In this document: positions 67-45,620 of the stretch, in pieces | Position numbering within the stretch: position 1 is the stretch's first letter | Layout of the letters: the number at the start of each line of letters is the position of its first letter | Assembly: GCF_000336755.1 (NCBI RefSeq) | Contig: NZ_AOLK01000005.1 | Span: 44,904 to 100,208 of the forward strand | Direction: 5' to 3' | DNA length: 55,305 nucleotides | From: Haloferax elongans ATCC BAA-1513 | GTDB taxonomy: Archaea > Halobacteriota > Halobacteria > Halobacteriales > Haloferacaceae | Translations under genes and position numbers: made by a program | Notes under the pieces: generated by a model | What the model was told of the DNA's origin: nothing | The model's input: the letters and a program-made list of their open reading frames with translations, nothing else | The model's database searches: none

Positions 67-371
67 TTCTACATACCACGCCAATGGTGTGGCAGTGGGG
101 TCTGCCCGGATAACCCCGCTTAGGTGGAAAAGTGAGGGCATATAATGCTAGTGAATTTCCACTTCTGAATGCTAGGTCACACATCCTTCAACATAATGAG
201 TAGTACAACCTTTCCACATTCAATAATTCCTCTCCCTCGAAAGTTCGGTTGACGTGCTCGGCTCGCTTCTTATTATATCAAATCCCGACGTCCCTCTTCT
301 CACACTGACTTAACTAGGTTGGCGCCTGTCATCCAATAATGTCTTGTACCCGCTATTAACAGTTAAACCGA
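67..371. other. Intergenic region upstream of the DUF2254-like gene
   Basis: No credible gene is seen here. The stretch is A+T-richer than its surroundings and includes TATA-like runs at about 269-280 (TATTATATCA) and 331-341. The second lies roughly 30 bases before the downstream start and could serve a near-leaderless transcript. No repeat or clear operator was recognised. Confidence 0.3.
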
Positions 372-7404: not shown

Positions 7405-7836
7405 TTATTCAAGAACTTTTTGCCGGGTCAACTCGTCCTGGTCTAACTCCTGCACGAAAGGGAAGGCATCTTCATGAATAATGTTCTGCAGCTCCTCAGG
7501 GTCTGCTGCAGCTACCTCAATTGTTTCGTGGCGCCATAGACGAAGCTCAAAGTCTTCTGGAAGATCGGAATTAACCTCCATCTCGGTTTTTTCCCTGTCT
7601 AAGTCTTTCCATGCATTTACTTGCACCTCTACCCTGAGGTCGTCATCCGGTCTAAGTAGGGCCTTGATGTTCCTCCCGATACCGTCTTCTTCGGTCCAGG
7701 ATAGACGTGTACTCTGCTCGCCCCACCTCCACCGCTCCAGTAAATTGTTATCCAAGTCGTGTTCATCAATAAGTTTGGAGAAGATCTGATCGATATCGTC
7801 AAGAACATCCTCGGCCGTTCGATACTCAATGCCCAT
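7405..7836 (-). CDS. Unknown acidic protein, 143 residues
   Basis: I chose ATG at 7836 (MGIEYRTAEDVLDDI) over the TTG three codons upstream. The protein is soluble and acidic, with an N-terminal helix rich in Asp and Leu (DIDQIFSKLIDEHDLDNNLL), a Trp-rich turn (ERWRWGEQSTRLSW), alternating strands and a C-terminal helical tail. It lacks recognisable catalytic motifs, signal peptide or membrane segments. It follows the unknown gene at 7892-8467 by 55 bases on the same strand and probably belongs to that transcript. The product was not recognised. Confidence 0.6.
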   Translation of the reverse strand: MGIEYRTAEDVLDDIDQIFSKLIDEHDLDNNLLERWRWGEQSTRLSWTEEDGIGRNIKALLRPDDDLRVEVQVNAWKDLDREKTEMEVNSDLPEDFELRLWRHETIEVAAADPEELQNIIHEDAFPFVQELDQDELTRQKVLE

Positions 7837-7891
7837 AGGTAACAATACTCATTGTTGAGCATGACTCTTTCCCCTACAGTTAGCCTGACAA

Positions 7892-8467
7892 TCATATGTC
7901 GGGGTTCCAATCTCCGAGCGTGGACAGATCCGCTACCCCGAATACGTATGCGGGCCCATCAACCGCAATCTCCTCTCCACCCCCTGGTTCGCCATTGTCG
8001 GGTTGGACCCTTCGAGGCCCGATAACTGGAGTCGGCAGCTGATCTGGTAGTATCGGTCCTACTCTGCAATCATGGAGACGCGGAAGAGCTAGTTCTTCCT
8101 TGGCTTCTTCTCTGGTTTCGTATCTCTCGGTGGAATAATACGTCAAGGGAGAGGGGCTGGTTGACTCAACCTTCCGCTCCTCAACGATCTGGTCAATCTC
8201 TTCCCTATGTGAAGGATGACGGTAATATGTATCTCCCACGTCGCCCCACCATGTTATTAGATACCATTGATCACTAAATAAGCGTTGCGACAGAGGAGAA
8301 CCGAGAACCAGATAATCAGCAGTACTTCCTTGGGAACGTCGGCAGAGGATACTCCCCGGAGCAGAGTTCTGCTCATGCGCGTTCAGCAGCGACCGCCTCT
8401 TATTTACAGACTCGAACAACAACTCCGACGTCGTCAACGTGAAATCCGTGACCGTGCCCCGGACCAT
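7892..8467 (-). CDS. Unknown protein, 191 residues
   Basis: The frame extends to a TTG at 8473, but ATG at 8467 (MVRGTVTDFTLTTSELL) is a more likely start. The product is soluble, with a central WYLITWWGDVGDTYYRH segment rich in aromatic residues and a Pro/Gly-rich C-terminal third. No known family was recognised. The gene begins 14 bases after the stop of a small cysteine-rich frame (8482-8670) and precedes the 7405-7836 gene, giving a possible three-gene unit on the minus strand in what looks like accessory DNA. Confidence 0.55.
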   Translation of the reverse strand: MVRGTVTDFTLTTSELLFESVNKRRSLLNAHEQNSAPGSILCRRSQGSTADYLVLGSPLSQRLFSDQWYLITWWGDVGDTYYRHPSHREEIDQIVEERKVESTSPSPLTYYSTERYETREEAKEELALPRLHDCRVGPILPDQLPTPVIGPRRVQPDNGEPGGGEEIAVDGPAYVFGVADLSTLGDWNPDI

Positions 8468-12748: not shown

Positions 12749-12855
12749 TTGTGACTTAGTTACTCATTAATCGTCGCTCTGCTAAATCTTGCTGTCGTGT
12801 ACTCAAATGGAATCGACTTCGTTGAGTGCTTCCGTAGAGAGGCACTGTCTAGTTA

Positions 12856-13303
12856 GTGGCCTCCTCGGCGAGCGTTCGTCCGTCAAGTGCTTGATACGGT
12901 CTCTGGAACCATAGTATTGCACAAATTGTATGAACCATTCGCGGACACTTCCGTGACTGCCCACCCACGAATTATGAAAGTGGTCGATTCGCATTGTGAG
13001 GGTGTGAAACCACTTTTCGATGCGGGTTCGCTCGACGTAGTCAAGCCGACCGCCCAATCCTACTCGAGAAGGCAGTCTGATAGACGTCGCCATCAACGAG
13101 AGACACAGCGTCTGAGAGATCGTGGTTCTCCGAGAGTCGATGGAGAAACGCAGCAGCCGGATCGGTACCATGTCGTCCAAACAACTTGACGTCAACAATC
13201 AGTTTTGTCTCGAGGTCTATTGCAGCGTCCAACCAAGACCACTCGCCGTTGATTTTGACAGCAGTCTCGTCGACCGCAACCCGCTTCGGCTTCGCCTTTA
13301 CCG
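12856..13303 (-). pseudogene. Truncated IS6-family element, minus strand
   Basis: From the terminal sequence GGCACTGTCTAGTTAGTG at 12856 this segment parallels, in reverse orientation, the right half of the IS6 copy at 13450-14413. On the minus strand it still reads through pieces of a DDE transposase, including VDETAVKINGEWSWLDAAID, LFGRHGTDPAAAFLHRLSEN and RIEKWFHTLTMR, but with frame damage. Similarity ends near 13303, where the duplicated antitoxin region begins. The N-terminal half and left end are missing, so the copy cannot move by itself. Confidence 0.75.
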
Positions 13304-13324
13304 CTGCTATTCAGACAAACACTG

Positions 13325-13450
13325 GCATTGCACGCCAATACATTCAATACAATTTAGTACATCTGATATACTATGCCCATCAGCGCGGACCGTTTCGAGA
13401 CAATTGACGACGGCAATGATAGCCCAAGTCCAGGCACAAACGCATACAAG
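13325..13450 (+). pseudogene. Duplicated antitoxin promoter and first 26 codons, cut by IS6
   Basis: This stretch is nearly identical to 16663-16789, the promoter and start of the intact antitoxin gene. It includes the conserved run ACAATTTAGTACATCTGATA and an ATG at 13373 followed by MPISADRFETIDDGND and ten more codons. The frame ends exactly at the left end of the IS6 element at 13450. The rest of this antitoxin copy is not found on the other side of the element. It shows that an earlier second toxin-antitoxin module, or a partial duplicate, was destroyed by the insertion. Confidence 0.8.
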
Positions 13451-13505
13451 ACACTGTCTAGTTAAGCCAGTTTGAGAAGCGAGCAGGTCATTGAGTGAAT
13501 TGGCT

Positions 13506-14405
13506 ATGTCGCTCGCAGCCCTGCTCAGCGAGTGCGTTGCGACGGATTTAGAAGAAACGTAGGAGCGTGAGCGGACAGCGACGTGACGAGACGCGAAGCG
13601 TCTCGTTCGCATCTCGCAGAATCAGCGATTCTGCGGACTCATCGGAAACCAGTGGTTTCCGAGACACCAGAAATCGAAGATTTCTGGGGACGTCCCAAAC
13701 TCGCGGAGCGAGTTTGTGGGCTCGAAAGACGCAAGCCTTTCGAACGTTCACGAGAGCAGAGCTCTCGTGCAGCCCATCAGAACGCGAAGCGTTCTGAGGA
13801 CGCCCGTCAGGGCGTTCGCTGTCCAGCTCCACGCAACCGGATGTTCACTCAGAGAAACAAAACAGATTCTTCGATATCTCGGCGTTGAACGCTCTCACCA
13901 AGCTGTTTGGCAGTGGGTACATCGGCTTGCTGACAGCGGTCACAACCCGCCTGAGGCAACGCCGAAGCGGGTTGCGGTCGACGAGACCGCTGTCAAAATC
14001 AATGGCGAATGGTCTTGGTTGGACGCTGCAATAGACATCGAGACAAAGCTGATTCGTGACGTCGGATTGTTTGGACGACATGGTACCGACCCGGCTGCTG
14101 CGTTTCTCCATCGACTCTCGGAGAACCACGATCTCTCAGACGCAGTGGATCTCGGTGATGGCGACGGCTCTCAAACTGCCCGCTCTCGAGTAGGATTGGG
14201 CGGTCGGCTTGACTACGTCGGGCGAACCCGCATCGAAACGTAGGTTCATACTCTCACAATGCGAGTTGATCGCGTCTATCATTCGTGGGTCGGCAGTCAC
14301 GGGAGTGTCCGCGAGTGGTTCATACAATTTGTGCACTACTACAATTTTCAGAGACCGCATCAAGCGCTCGACGGACGAACACCGGTTGAGGGGGTCACTA
14401 ACTAG
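13506..14405 (+). pseudogene. IS6-family DDE transposase with in-frame stops and hairpin insert
   Basis: Read from ATG 13506 (MSLAALLSECVATDLEET) to TAG 14403, the gene stays in one frame for 300 codons, of which 73 belong to the inserted hairpin array (13584-13802). The remaining 226 codons match the usual transposase length, with GVERSHQAVWQWVHRLAD, VAVDETAVKINGEWSWLDAA (first Asp), LFGRHGTDPAAAFLH, and the end REWFIQFVHYYNFQRPHQAL. Stops interrupt it at 13560-13562 and 14241-14243, both TAG where relatives have Trp (TGG), and at 13584-13586 (TGA, first codon of the insert). It is therefore inactive unless stops are read through. Confidence 0.8.
13584..13802. repeat. Array of eight short hairpins inserted in a transposase gene
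   Basis: Seven near-perfect 21-base hairpins, each with 9-base arms and a 3-base loop, start at 13586, 13615, 13642, 13667, 13696, 13749 and 13777; an imperfect eighth lies at 13722-13743. Start-to-start spacing is 25-29 bases. Arms differ from hairpin to hairpin (ACGAGACGC, CGCAGAATC, TCGGAAACC, CCAGAAATC, CAAACTCGC, CACGAGAGC, TCAGAACGC), so structure rather than sequence repeats; loops are GAA, AGC, AGT, GAA, GGA, AGA and GAA. The insert is 219 bases, exactly 73 codons, and is flanked by GACG on both sides, compatible with a short target duplication. Confidence 0.85.
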
Positions 14406-14492
14406 ACAGTGCCCTGATAACTGTTGCACACCAGTCTAATGTGTGCTAACTAGACTCCTTCGCTTGAGGGTGATTTTATCACTTGGAATTGC

Positions 14493-16662: not shown

Positions 16663-16711
16663 GGGACTGCATTCCAATATATTCAATACAATTTAGTACA
16701 TCTGATATACT
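16663..16711 (+). promoter_or_regulatory. Toxin-antitoxin promoter/operator
   Basis: The 49 bases before the antitoxin start are nearly identical to those at 13325-13372, although the flanks differ. Conserved elements are ATTCAATACAATTTAGTACA and TCTGATATACT; AGTA and TACT form an imperfect dyad around the start region. Antitoxins of such modules usually repress their own promoter, so this is the likely operator. Confidence 0.5.
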
Positions 16712-17074
16712 ATGCCCATCAGCGCGGATCGCTTCGAGACAATTGACGACGGCAACGATGGTCCAAGTCCGGGGACAAACGCCTACAAAATCCTCTCATT
16801 CTTAGCGCAGCATGCTGATCAAGCGTTCACACAAAGCGAGATCGCCGAGCGGACGGCCGTCAAATCCGGGTCAGTTGGTCCAACGCTCGTCAGGCTCAGA
16901 GAACGAGGTCGCGTCGAACATCGCGGCACGTACTGGCGTGTTAGTGATCACGTCTTGAGCCTCGACGCTGCAGCCAACCATGCTGCTGCTGTTGCAGCGA
17001 GTCGCGAAGAGGAACCATTTGAGTACGACGACTGGCAAGAACACGCCGTTGACCCACGCAAACAACGTGACTGA
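16712..17074 (+). CDS. HTH (MarR/winged-helix-like) antitoxin
   Basis: The 120-residue protein starts MPISADRFETIDDGNDGPS and then has a winged-helix DNA-binding domain at residues 25-80: AYKILSFLAQH, the recognition-helix part TQSEIAERTAVKSGSVGPTL, VRLRERGRVEHRGTYWRVS. The C-terminal tail (FEYDDWQEHAVDPRKQRD) is short and acidic, as expected for a toxin-binding segment. The toxin gene begins at 17067 inside the end of this gene, an 8-base overlap, so the two proteins are made together. The protein probably neutralises the toxin and represses the operon. A damaged duplicate of its first 26 codons lies at 13373. Confidence 0.8.
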   Translation: MPISADRFETIDDGNDGPSPGTNAYKILSFLAQHADQAFTQSEIAERTAVKSGSVGPTLVRLRERGRVEHRGTYWRVSDHVLSLDAAANHAAAVAASREEEPFEYDDWQEHAVDPRKQRD

Positions 17075-17452: not shown

Positions 17453-17542
17453 GTGAGTGCCTCGGGGTCGTACGGAAATCTTCGATTTCCGTGATGACGA
17501 GACGCTTCGCGTCTCGAACCACTTGACCCCGAGGCGGTTCAC
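17453..17542. repeat. IS605-end footprint (PATE-like) with two hairpins in its loop
   Basis: Outer arms GCCTCGGGGTC (17459-17469) and GACCCCGAGGC (17525-17535) form a long palindrome. Its left flank GAGTGCCTCGGGG equals the TnpA-side end of the IS605 element at 43.6-45.5 kb, and its right flank CTTGACCCCGAGGCGGTTCAC equals the TnpB-side end (both in reverse complement). Instead of the 5-base loop it carries two hairpins: ACGGAAATC/GATTTCCGT (17472-17492, loop TTC) and CGAGACGC/GCGTCTCG (17498-17516, loop TTC). The latter is the reverse complement of the first hairpin in the array at 13586. Elements of this kind have been called palindrome-associated elements in haloarchaea. Confidence 0.75.
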
Positions 17543-43578: not shown

Positions 43579-43760
43579 ACCGCCTCGGGGTCAAGCCCCG
43601 AGGCTTCTTCCCGTGGTTTAATCAGATACTCCCACCTGACCATCGGCCTGATAGCCTCGGGCGGTCGGGTGGGTCACGGTCGGGCTGTCCACAAGCCCCG
43701 ATGCCTGCCGTCGCACCTTCCGAACAACGGGAAGGCTGTTGAGAGCAGGCACATTCCAAT
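43579..43760 (-). ncRNA. Candidate TnpB guide RNA (omega RNA) region
   Basis: In IS605-type elements the TnpB guide RNA comes from the 3' end of tnpB and the adjoining element end. Here that is the minus-strand region covering the last TnpB codons and the hairpin at 43583-43603. The guide would be read from the flanking DNA, beginning near 43576 and running into the IS4-like relic. This is expected from the family; no transcript can be seen in sequence alone. Confidence 0.4.
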
Positions 43761-45097: not shown

Positions 45098-45496
45098 ATG
45101 GGTGAGAAGCAGTCGAATCACACAGTGTACAACGTCAACTACCACTTCGTGTGGTGTCCGAAGTACCGTCACGCGATTCTCGAACCCATCGAGGATTCGT
45201 TGGAAACGAGTTTCCGCGACGTGTGTGACGAGTATGATTACGAGATACTGTCGCTCCACATCTCTCCCGACCACGTACATTTGTTCCTCTCCGCCCACCC
45301 GAAACACGCGCCGAGCGAGATTGCACGGACTGTCAAGAGCATCACGGCGCGGGAGATGTGGGAACAGCACGAGTCGTTCTTAGAGGAGTATTTGTGGGGT
45401 GGTGGATTCTGGGAACGGTCGTACTACATTGGAACGGCAGGAACAGTCTCAACGGGAACGATTGAGCGGTACATCGAGCGGACAGAACACGTCTAA
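45098..45496 (+). CDS. tnpA: TnpA Y1 HUH transposase of IS605
   Basis: The 132-residue protein has the Y1-transposase motifs: YHFVWCPKYRH near residue 16, the HUH pair in PDHVHLFLSAHPK near 58-70, and the catalytic Tyr region ERSYYIGTAGTVSTGTIERY near 106-126. Such enzymes cut and rejoin single-stranded DNA at hairpin ends, moving the element through replication forks. Length is normal for the family and no motif is missing. It is divergent from the DUF2080-like/TnpB pair, with 53 bases between the starts, so promoters overlap. Confidence 0.9.
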   Translation: MGEKQSNHTVYNVNYHFVWCPKYRHAILEPIEDSLETSFRDVCDEYDYEILSLHISPDHVHLFLSAHPKHAPSEIARTVKSITAREMWEQHESFLEEYLWGGGFWERSYYIGTAGTVSTGTIERYIERTEHV

Positions 45497-45620
45497 GTGT
45501 CGGCTTCACCCTCGGGGTCAAGCCCCGAGGCACTCGCCTTGTTTCCTCTGTAGACGTCCATATTGGTCAAGTCACCACGCTCAGTGTCAAACGAGAAGCA
45601 GCAGAACCCACAAGAGAATG

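Follow-up and report, generated by a model that had tools for sequence, protein, structure and literature searches.

Introduction

Among the REPs of bacteria, a GTAG and a CGTC superfamily have been defined by Di Nocera et al. 2013 (PMC3733652). GTAG REPs are cleaved as single-stranded DNA by RAYT. CGTC REPs, whose hairpins end on one side in an unpaired CGTC (or TGTC/CCTC) tag, occur as dimers with the tags outside, have stems of 8-9 bp, are found inside genes and have no known transposase, and the literature leaves open how these palindromic repeats move (PMC3733652). Haloquadratum carries PATEs as well as possibly mobile terminal-only forms of 52 bp, and for the haloarchaeal short mobile repeats (SMR-A) the mover is likewise an open question (PMC3119063). 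No archaeal description of hairpin pairs such as those reported here was found in the open-licence literature.

In this study, we analysed a stretch of 55,305 nucleotides from Haloferax elongans ATCC BAA-1513, referred to as the window. Its initial annotation had pointed out an array of short hairpins inside an IS6 transposase gene and hinted that it was without parallel. We found that the array is not unique, and that hairpin pairs of this kind are spread class-wide in Halobacteria.

Results

An array of four hairpin pairs in an IS6-type transposase gene

The array is an in-frame insert of 219 bp in an IS6-type transposase gene, lying between GCGACG and CCCGTC. It contains seven perfect hairpins with 9-base arms and 3-base loops (starts at 13586, 13615, 13642, 13667, 13696, 13749 and 13777) and an imperfect eighth at about 13720-13741. 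All eight span 13586-13797 with a start-to-start spacing of about 24-29 bases, in agreement with the run of seven near-perfect and one imperfect hairpins first described. The 55-kb window holds 8 perfect hairpins of this kind, with a longest run of 7. When the whole window was shuffled 60 times with dinucleotides preserved, the mean was 0.25 and the maximum 3, with a longest run of 1; the concern that random sequence might give similar runs was thus not confirmed, since two in a row were never seen.

The 73-codon in-frame insertion was also confirmed, and relatives have an empty site at this position. An unbroken relative reads EETWERERTAT-PVRVFAVQ across it. As such relatives lack the array, its arms are not ordinary coding sequence of an unbroken ancestral gene, another possibility that had been raised. 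However, the TGA with which the array begins (13584) is not the only disruption, as had been claimed, because an in-frame TAG lies upstream at 13560-13562, where relatives have TGG (W); the transposase was already broken. The features of the locus, in window positions, are as follows.

13450-14413, plus strand: host IS6-type element with terminal repeats (left GACACTGTCTAGTTAA, right CTAACTAGACAGTGCC) and a degraded transposase; the uninterrupted relatives L021 and L022 match DDE_Tnp_IS240
13584-13802, plus strand: hairpin array of four hairpin pairs, one nested in another, placed after GCGACG in the IS6 transposase gene
13582-13692, plus strand: pair beta (H1 13586-13606, H4 13667-13687), bounded by CG on either side and with delta nested within its linker; locus L011 has H1-TCGCACA-H4 without the nested pair
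13612-13664, plus strand: nested pair delta, 53 bp (H2 13615-13635, linker GACTCA, H3 13642-13662), from comparison of the window, L002, L003, L010 and L012 with L011 and L013
13691-13746, minus strand: pair gamma, in opposite orientation (H5 13696-13716, imperfect H6 at about 13720-13741); 33.3 bits on the minus strand
13745-13802, plus strand: pair alpha, the class-wide type (H7 13749-13769, linker CAGCCCA, H8 13777-13797); 86.6 bits

The CG at 13691-13692 and that at 13745-13746 belong both to gamma and to its neighbours. Along the array, palindromic outer linkers (GGACGTCC, GAACGTTC) alternate with asymmetric inner ones (CAGCCCA, TGGGC, TCGCA..). The nesting of delta was read from relatives such as L011. 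At the same place in the beta linker, L153 and L170 (minus strand about 172-290, plus strand about 7803-7920) have a nested pair with other arms and another linker (TCTTGGAAATC..GGTC..CGA), and the beta linker looks like an additional insertion site.

Just upstream of the host element lies a degraded, inverted second IS6-type transposase (12803-13400). A near-exact repeat of about 110 bp occurs at 13339-13449 and 16678-16788; the first of the two resembles a 5' portion of the small gene that starts near 16713, truncated by the IS6 element (13450).

The hairpin pair as a conserved unit

Aligned array-like hairpins gave the unit consensus CGTTCACGAGAGC-nnn-GCTCTCGTG-CAGCCCA-TCAGAACGC-nnn-GCGTTCTGA-GGACG. 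When the array DNA was compared with 59 relatives, 43 matched, mostly in sub-blocks and chiefly in the last two hairpins or the IS6 flanks. A covariance model of the hairpin pair, R1, was built from 17 seed units. R1 scored the array as four consecutive pairs and found a fifth pair in the window at 17469-17520. Standard pairs filled 99% of the pair cells of the seed units, and 33 cells were changed on both sides, whereas shuffles gave 9.4 and sliding of the partner gave no more than 4. In 57 distinct 58-base units, the variable arm positions swapped as pairs (GC/AT, GC/AT/CG, TA/CG, CG/AT and GC/TA), while the left tag CGTT (50/57), the right GGACG (52/57) and the linker CAGCCCA (49/57) were nearly fixed and the three loop bases varied.

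Since most arm changes affect both partners of a pair, it is the folded hairpin that is conserved. The constant layout that was first noted therefore stands, but the arm sequence is not free: in these alignments, it has few variable positions, which change together and mainly in a compensatory manner within each unit type. Isolated half-units were not found in about 2 Mb of loci; apparent singles were variant pairs, and a strict pattern gave 123 dimers. At the sequence level, we have shown the hairpin pair to be the unit.

Strong paired conservation of the arms would also be expected if the hairpins were kept for a host or RNA function, as a structured transcript, a terminator or a nucleoid mark, and had spread by selection and not as selfish mobile DNA. 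Roles of this kind have been credited to bacterial REPs (PMC3733652). However, an Rfam search with the unit gave no match, copies disrupt TnpB or transposase genes out of frame, and copy number differs from none to tens between related genomes. We consider such a function very unlikely as the explanation of these units.

We compared the pairs with the CGTC REPs feature by feature. Like the head-head dimers of that superfamily (PMC3733652), the units are mostly dimers with CGTC or CGTT tags outside: besides the CGTT that prevails in the left hairpin, a one-base variant, CGTC is present in 4/57, and the right hairpin has CGTCC in 52/57. Stems are typically 9 bp (8-10 seen). Copies within genes, insertion within palindromes in some species and the lack of a linked transposase are further likenesses to CGTC REPs (PMC3733652). 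In contrast, loops are of 3 bases nearly throughout, compared with 4-5; the spacer is 4-8 bases, compared with mostly 20-100; and the CCA tail is absent, with CAGCCCA, GCCA or TCGCACA as inner linker and CAGC or TGGG as tag-strand tails. CGTC REPs have moreover been described only in bacteria (PMC3733652), whereas the present pairs are class-wide in Halobacteria and often lie in other mobile elements. The CGTC families dRS3 of Neisseria and RPE-4 and RPE-6 of Rickettsia (PMC3733652) are similar as CGTC-tagged short palindromes that are clustered (dRS3) or within genes (RPE), though these are bacterial and the likeness is one of description, not of sequence.

The array also resembles BIMEs and REPINs in its clusters of regularly spaced hairpins of alternating orientation, its tiling units and its very short target, here the dinucleotide CG. 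Unlike REPINs with RAYT (GTAG REPs), it has neither a GTAG tag nor a dedicated RAYT gene. By analogy, the haloarchaeal pair would work like a REP dimer or BIME; because of the 3-base loops, the missing CCA tail and the very short spacers, we do not call it a proven member of a CGTC family.

Occupied and empty insertion sites

We joined the flanks of units across one CG and matched the resulting sequences to all sampled loci, with one genome sampled per species. This gave 15 independent contexts with an unoccupied relative, which showed 81-97% identity over at least 90 bp and an ungapped junction; two of these contexts are junctions within arrays. The junction was CG in 13 of the 15 empty sites (CA and TG in the other two) against a CG background of about 12%, and was preceded by a purine in 14 of the 15 contexts. 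The GACG that had been reported on both flanks of the array is thereby reduced to a shared CG once many insertions are compared. An occupied site has the unit and one CG more than its empty counterpart, so that a CG is left on either side. This is insertion beside a short fixed target without other duplication, as for IS200/IS605-type elements, and a 2-bp target duplication would look the same. A single unit adds 55-56 bp and shifts the frame; the in-frame length of 73 codons in the window is therefore a coincidence.

The targets included several TnpB genes and the IS6 transposase at two sites, both kinds confirmed with Pfam, and IS605-end palindromes. Two of the TnpB insertions lie at VLG-VDLG and GIDLG-V, positions that we take to be near the first RuvC catalytic motif of TnpB. 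These comparisons argue strongly that the units are non-autonomous mobile elements of about 56 bases, hairpin pairs that insert at CG. At the outset it had been suggested, as one option, that an enzyme or a replication process creates or collects small palindromes, which comes close to this reading of mobile units inserted serially at CG. The IS6, IS605-end and Halorubrum contexts hinted at hairpins as preferred targets; the rejoined flanks of 41 context clusters were no more hairpin-like than random CG sites, and this candidate was rejected.

The fifth pair of the window interrupts, at about 17458-17537, a palindrome of which two intact copies lie elsewhere in the window near Y1 transposase genes.

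17469-17520, minus strand: fifth hairpin pair (R1 match), within palindrome GCCTCGGGGTCAAGCCCCGAGGC of an IS605-type end
43582-43604, strand not assigned: uninterrupted copy of palindrome GCCTCGGGGTCAAGCCCCGAGGC
45510-45530, strand not assigned: second uninterrupted copy of palindrome GCCTCGGGGTCAAGCCCCGAGGC, adjoining the Y1 transposase gene 45122-45481

The reversed recurrence of one array hairpin at 17498 was reproduced: the core of the first array hairpin stands in reverse complement at 17498-17516, as part of the pair 17472-17516. A similar pair type (linker TCATC) recurs beside repeats of Halorubrum. In that genus, alpha pairs occupy the centre of a larger inverted repeat with arms of about 27 bp (L093, L125, L126, L133 and others). 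The arms of this larger repeat also change as pairs between copies, and L250, L256, L258 and L283 carry it without a hairpin pair. Hairpin pairs were also seen at tnpA/tnpB junctions (L123:1452-1503 and L108:1446-1506).

Many pairs lie in or beside IS605 elements, and together with the PATEs and terminal-only forms of Haloquadratum this would agree with an origin as end-fusions of IS605-type transposons, in which the left and right end hairpins were joined after loss of the core and moved by the TnpA of the parent. However, no element with the hairpins split to its ends was seen among 30 Y1 loci or across loci totalling about 2 Mb, in which IS605 ends were annotated in part, and the pairs are inserts inside IS605 genes that have intact empty counterparts. 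Such an origin therefore seems improbable. The mobile pairs do resemble the PATEs and SMR-A of Haloquadratum walsbyi (PMC3119063), as very short haloarchaeal mobile DNA with no obvious target duplication and a strong preference for IS605-type elements and palindromes. Unlike the pairs, SMR-A measure about 110 bp and bear terminal inverted repeats, and PATEs have IS605-like ends (PMC3119063), a distinction drawn by description only.

Growth of the arrays

At the IS6 site, relatives have no unit (L014, L021, L024), a single alpha (L068, L069, L075) or several units: beta-alpha in L011, gamma-beta in L010, and beta-gamma-alpha in L009 and the window, with the nested delta present or absent. In the window and genome G044, neighbouring units overlapped by exactly 2 nt, the shared CG, in 14 of 18 cases and in all relative orientations. 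Since neighbours mostly share exactly the target CG, arrays most likely grow by serial insertion, and repeated insertion at the CG on unit ends is the simplest account of these sequences. Each inserted unit would bring a CG at both ends and thus a fresh target. Recombination between units may add or remove array copies too.

Replication template switching can turn quasi-palindromes perfect. Local tandem duplication with such hairpin correction, without any transposition, would account for the paired arm changes and for array content that varies at one fixed IS6 site, but it does not explain why the same units recur at numerous unrelated positions, with exact CG junctions and with relatives that are empty there, nor why they occur across the class and its plasmids. 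Template switching is largely refuted as the source of the spread, and this route to the array is extremely unlikely; it could still act on arm divergence.

Distribution of the units

Matches to R1 (E<=1e-5) were found in 267 of 292 Halobacteria genomes and 75 of 77 genera, with 0 to 60 units per genome. A pattern scan of named genomes gave units in Haloarcula, Halorubrum, Natrinema, Halorientalis, Haloferax, Halococcus, Natronorubrum and others. Matches were also present in 63 plasmid records from about 25 haloarchaeal genera; the plasmid matches listed are haloarchaeal by name, with almost no annotation at the match. No unit was found in phage records, and viral contigs gave 2 matches to a 19-base pattern and none to the long pattern. 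Bacterial matches to the 19-base pattern were left out of the counts, because so short a pattern matches by chance in 257 billion bases.

Outside Halobacteria, weak matches were seen in only 3 sampled members of the phylum. These are hairpin arrays whose layout is the same but whose arms and tags differ. Loci L288-L297, from two non-Halobacteria families of the phylum, have 9-3-9 type hairpin arrays with A-rich arms and the tags GTCTT/GAGAC.

Discussion

The array is probably best explained as four copies of a mobile hairpin-pair element inserted at CG by a putative Y1/HUH mover. Each element consists of two 21-base hairpins whose CGTYC tags point outwards and whose short inner linker is conserved, and it would move as a single strand in which both hairpins are folded. 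A hairpin-recognising Y1/HUH transposase acting in trans (IS200/IS605 TnpA or RAYT-like) would cut and join next to CG, and the tag would guide it to this target, as in RAYT cleavage of GTAG-tagged REPs.

A Y1 gene was present in 17 of 20 unit-rich genomes, compared with 7 of 20 unit-free genomes, an association that agrees with a Y1 mover but may reflect only genomes rich in mobile DNA and is confounded by relatedness as well. None of 30 Y1 (PF01797) loci was flanked by split half-sites, and an autonomous parent with split hairpins was not seen in these or in about 2 Mb of loci. A dedicated Y1 gene flanked by repeats, as in REPINs, was thus not found, and six genomes with 5-22 units (G027, G064, G216, G030, G020 and G083) had no detected Y1 gene. 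Homogeneous unit copies in a Y1-less genome do not decide against Y1, because some share their flanks and are part of a larger repeat. An orientation bias along the replichores, the expectation for lagging-strand transposition, was suggested in one genome (G082) and not in two others; GC skew was weak, and the result was not convincing. Given the lack of split half-sites, the confounded Y1 counts, the unit-bearing genomes without Y1 and the unconvincing bias, the Y1 step is one that we infer by analogy, as a tentative best guess. It is also possible, though doubtful, that the units form an archaeal class of minimal mobile DNA in its own right, in which two-hairpin units of about 56 bases go as folded single strands to CG with a mover other than a resident Y1 transposase, form arrays by targeting their own ends and live as parasites of TnpB and IS elements, the related arrays in other Halobacteriota included.

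The repeated insertions in TnpB genes form a pattern of parasites of transposons. With defined ends, a CG target and 15 pairs of occupied and empty sites, the family makes the question of the mover directly testable in a tractable host such as Haloferax volcanii.
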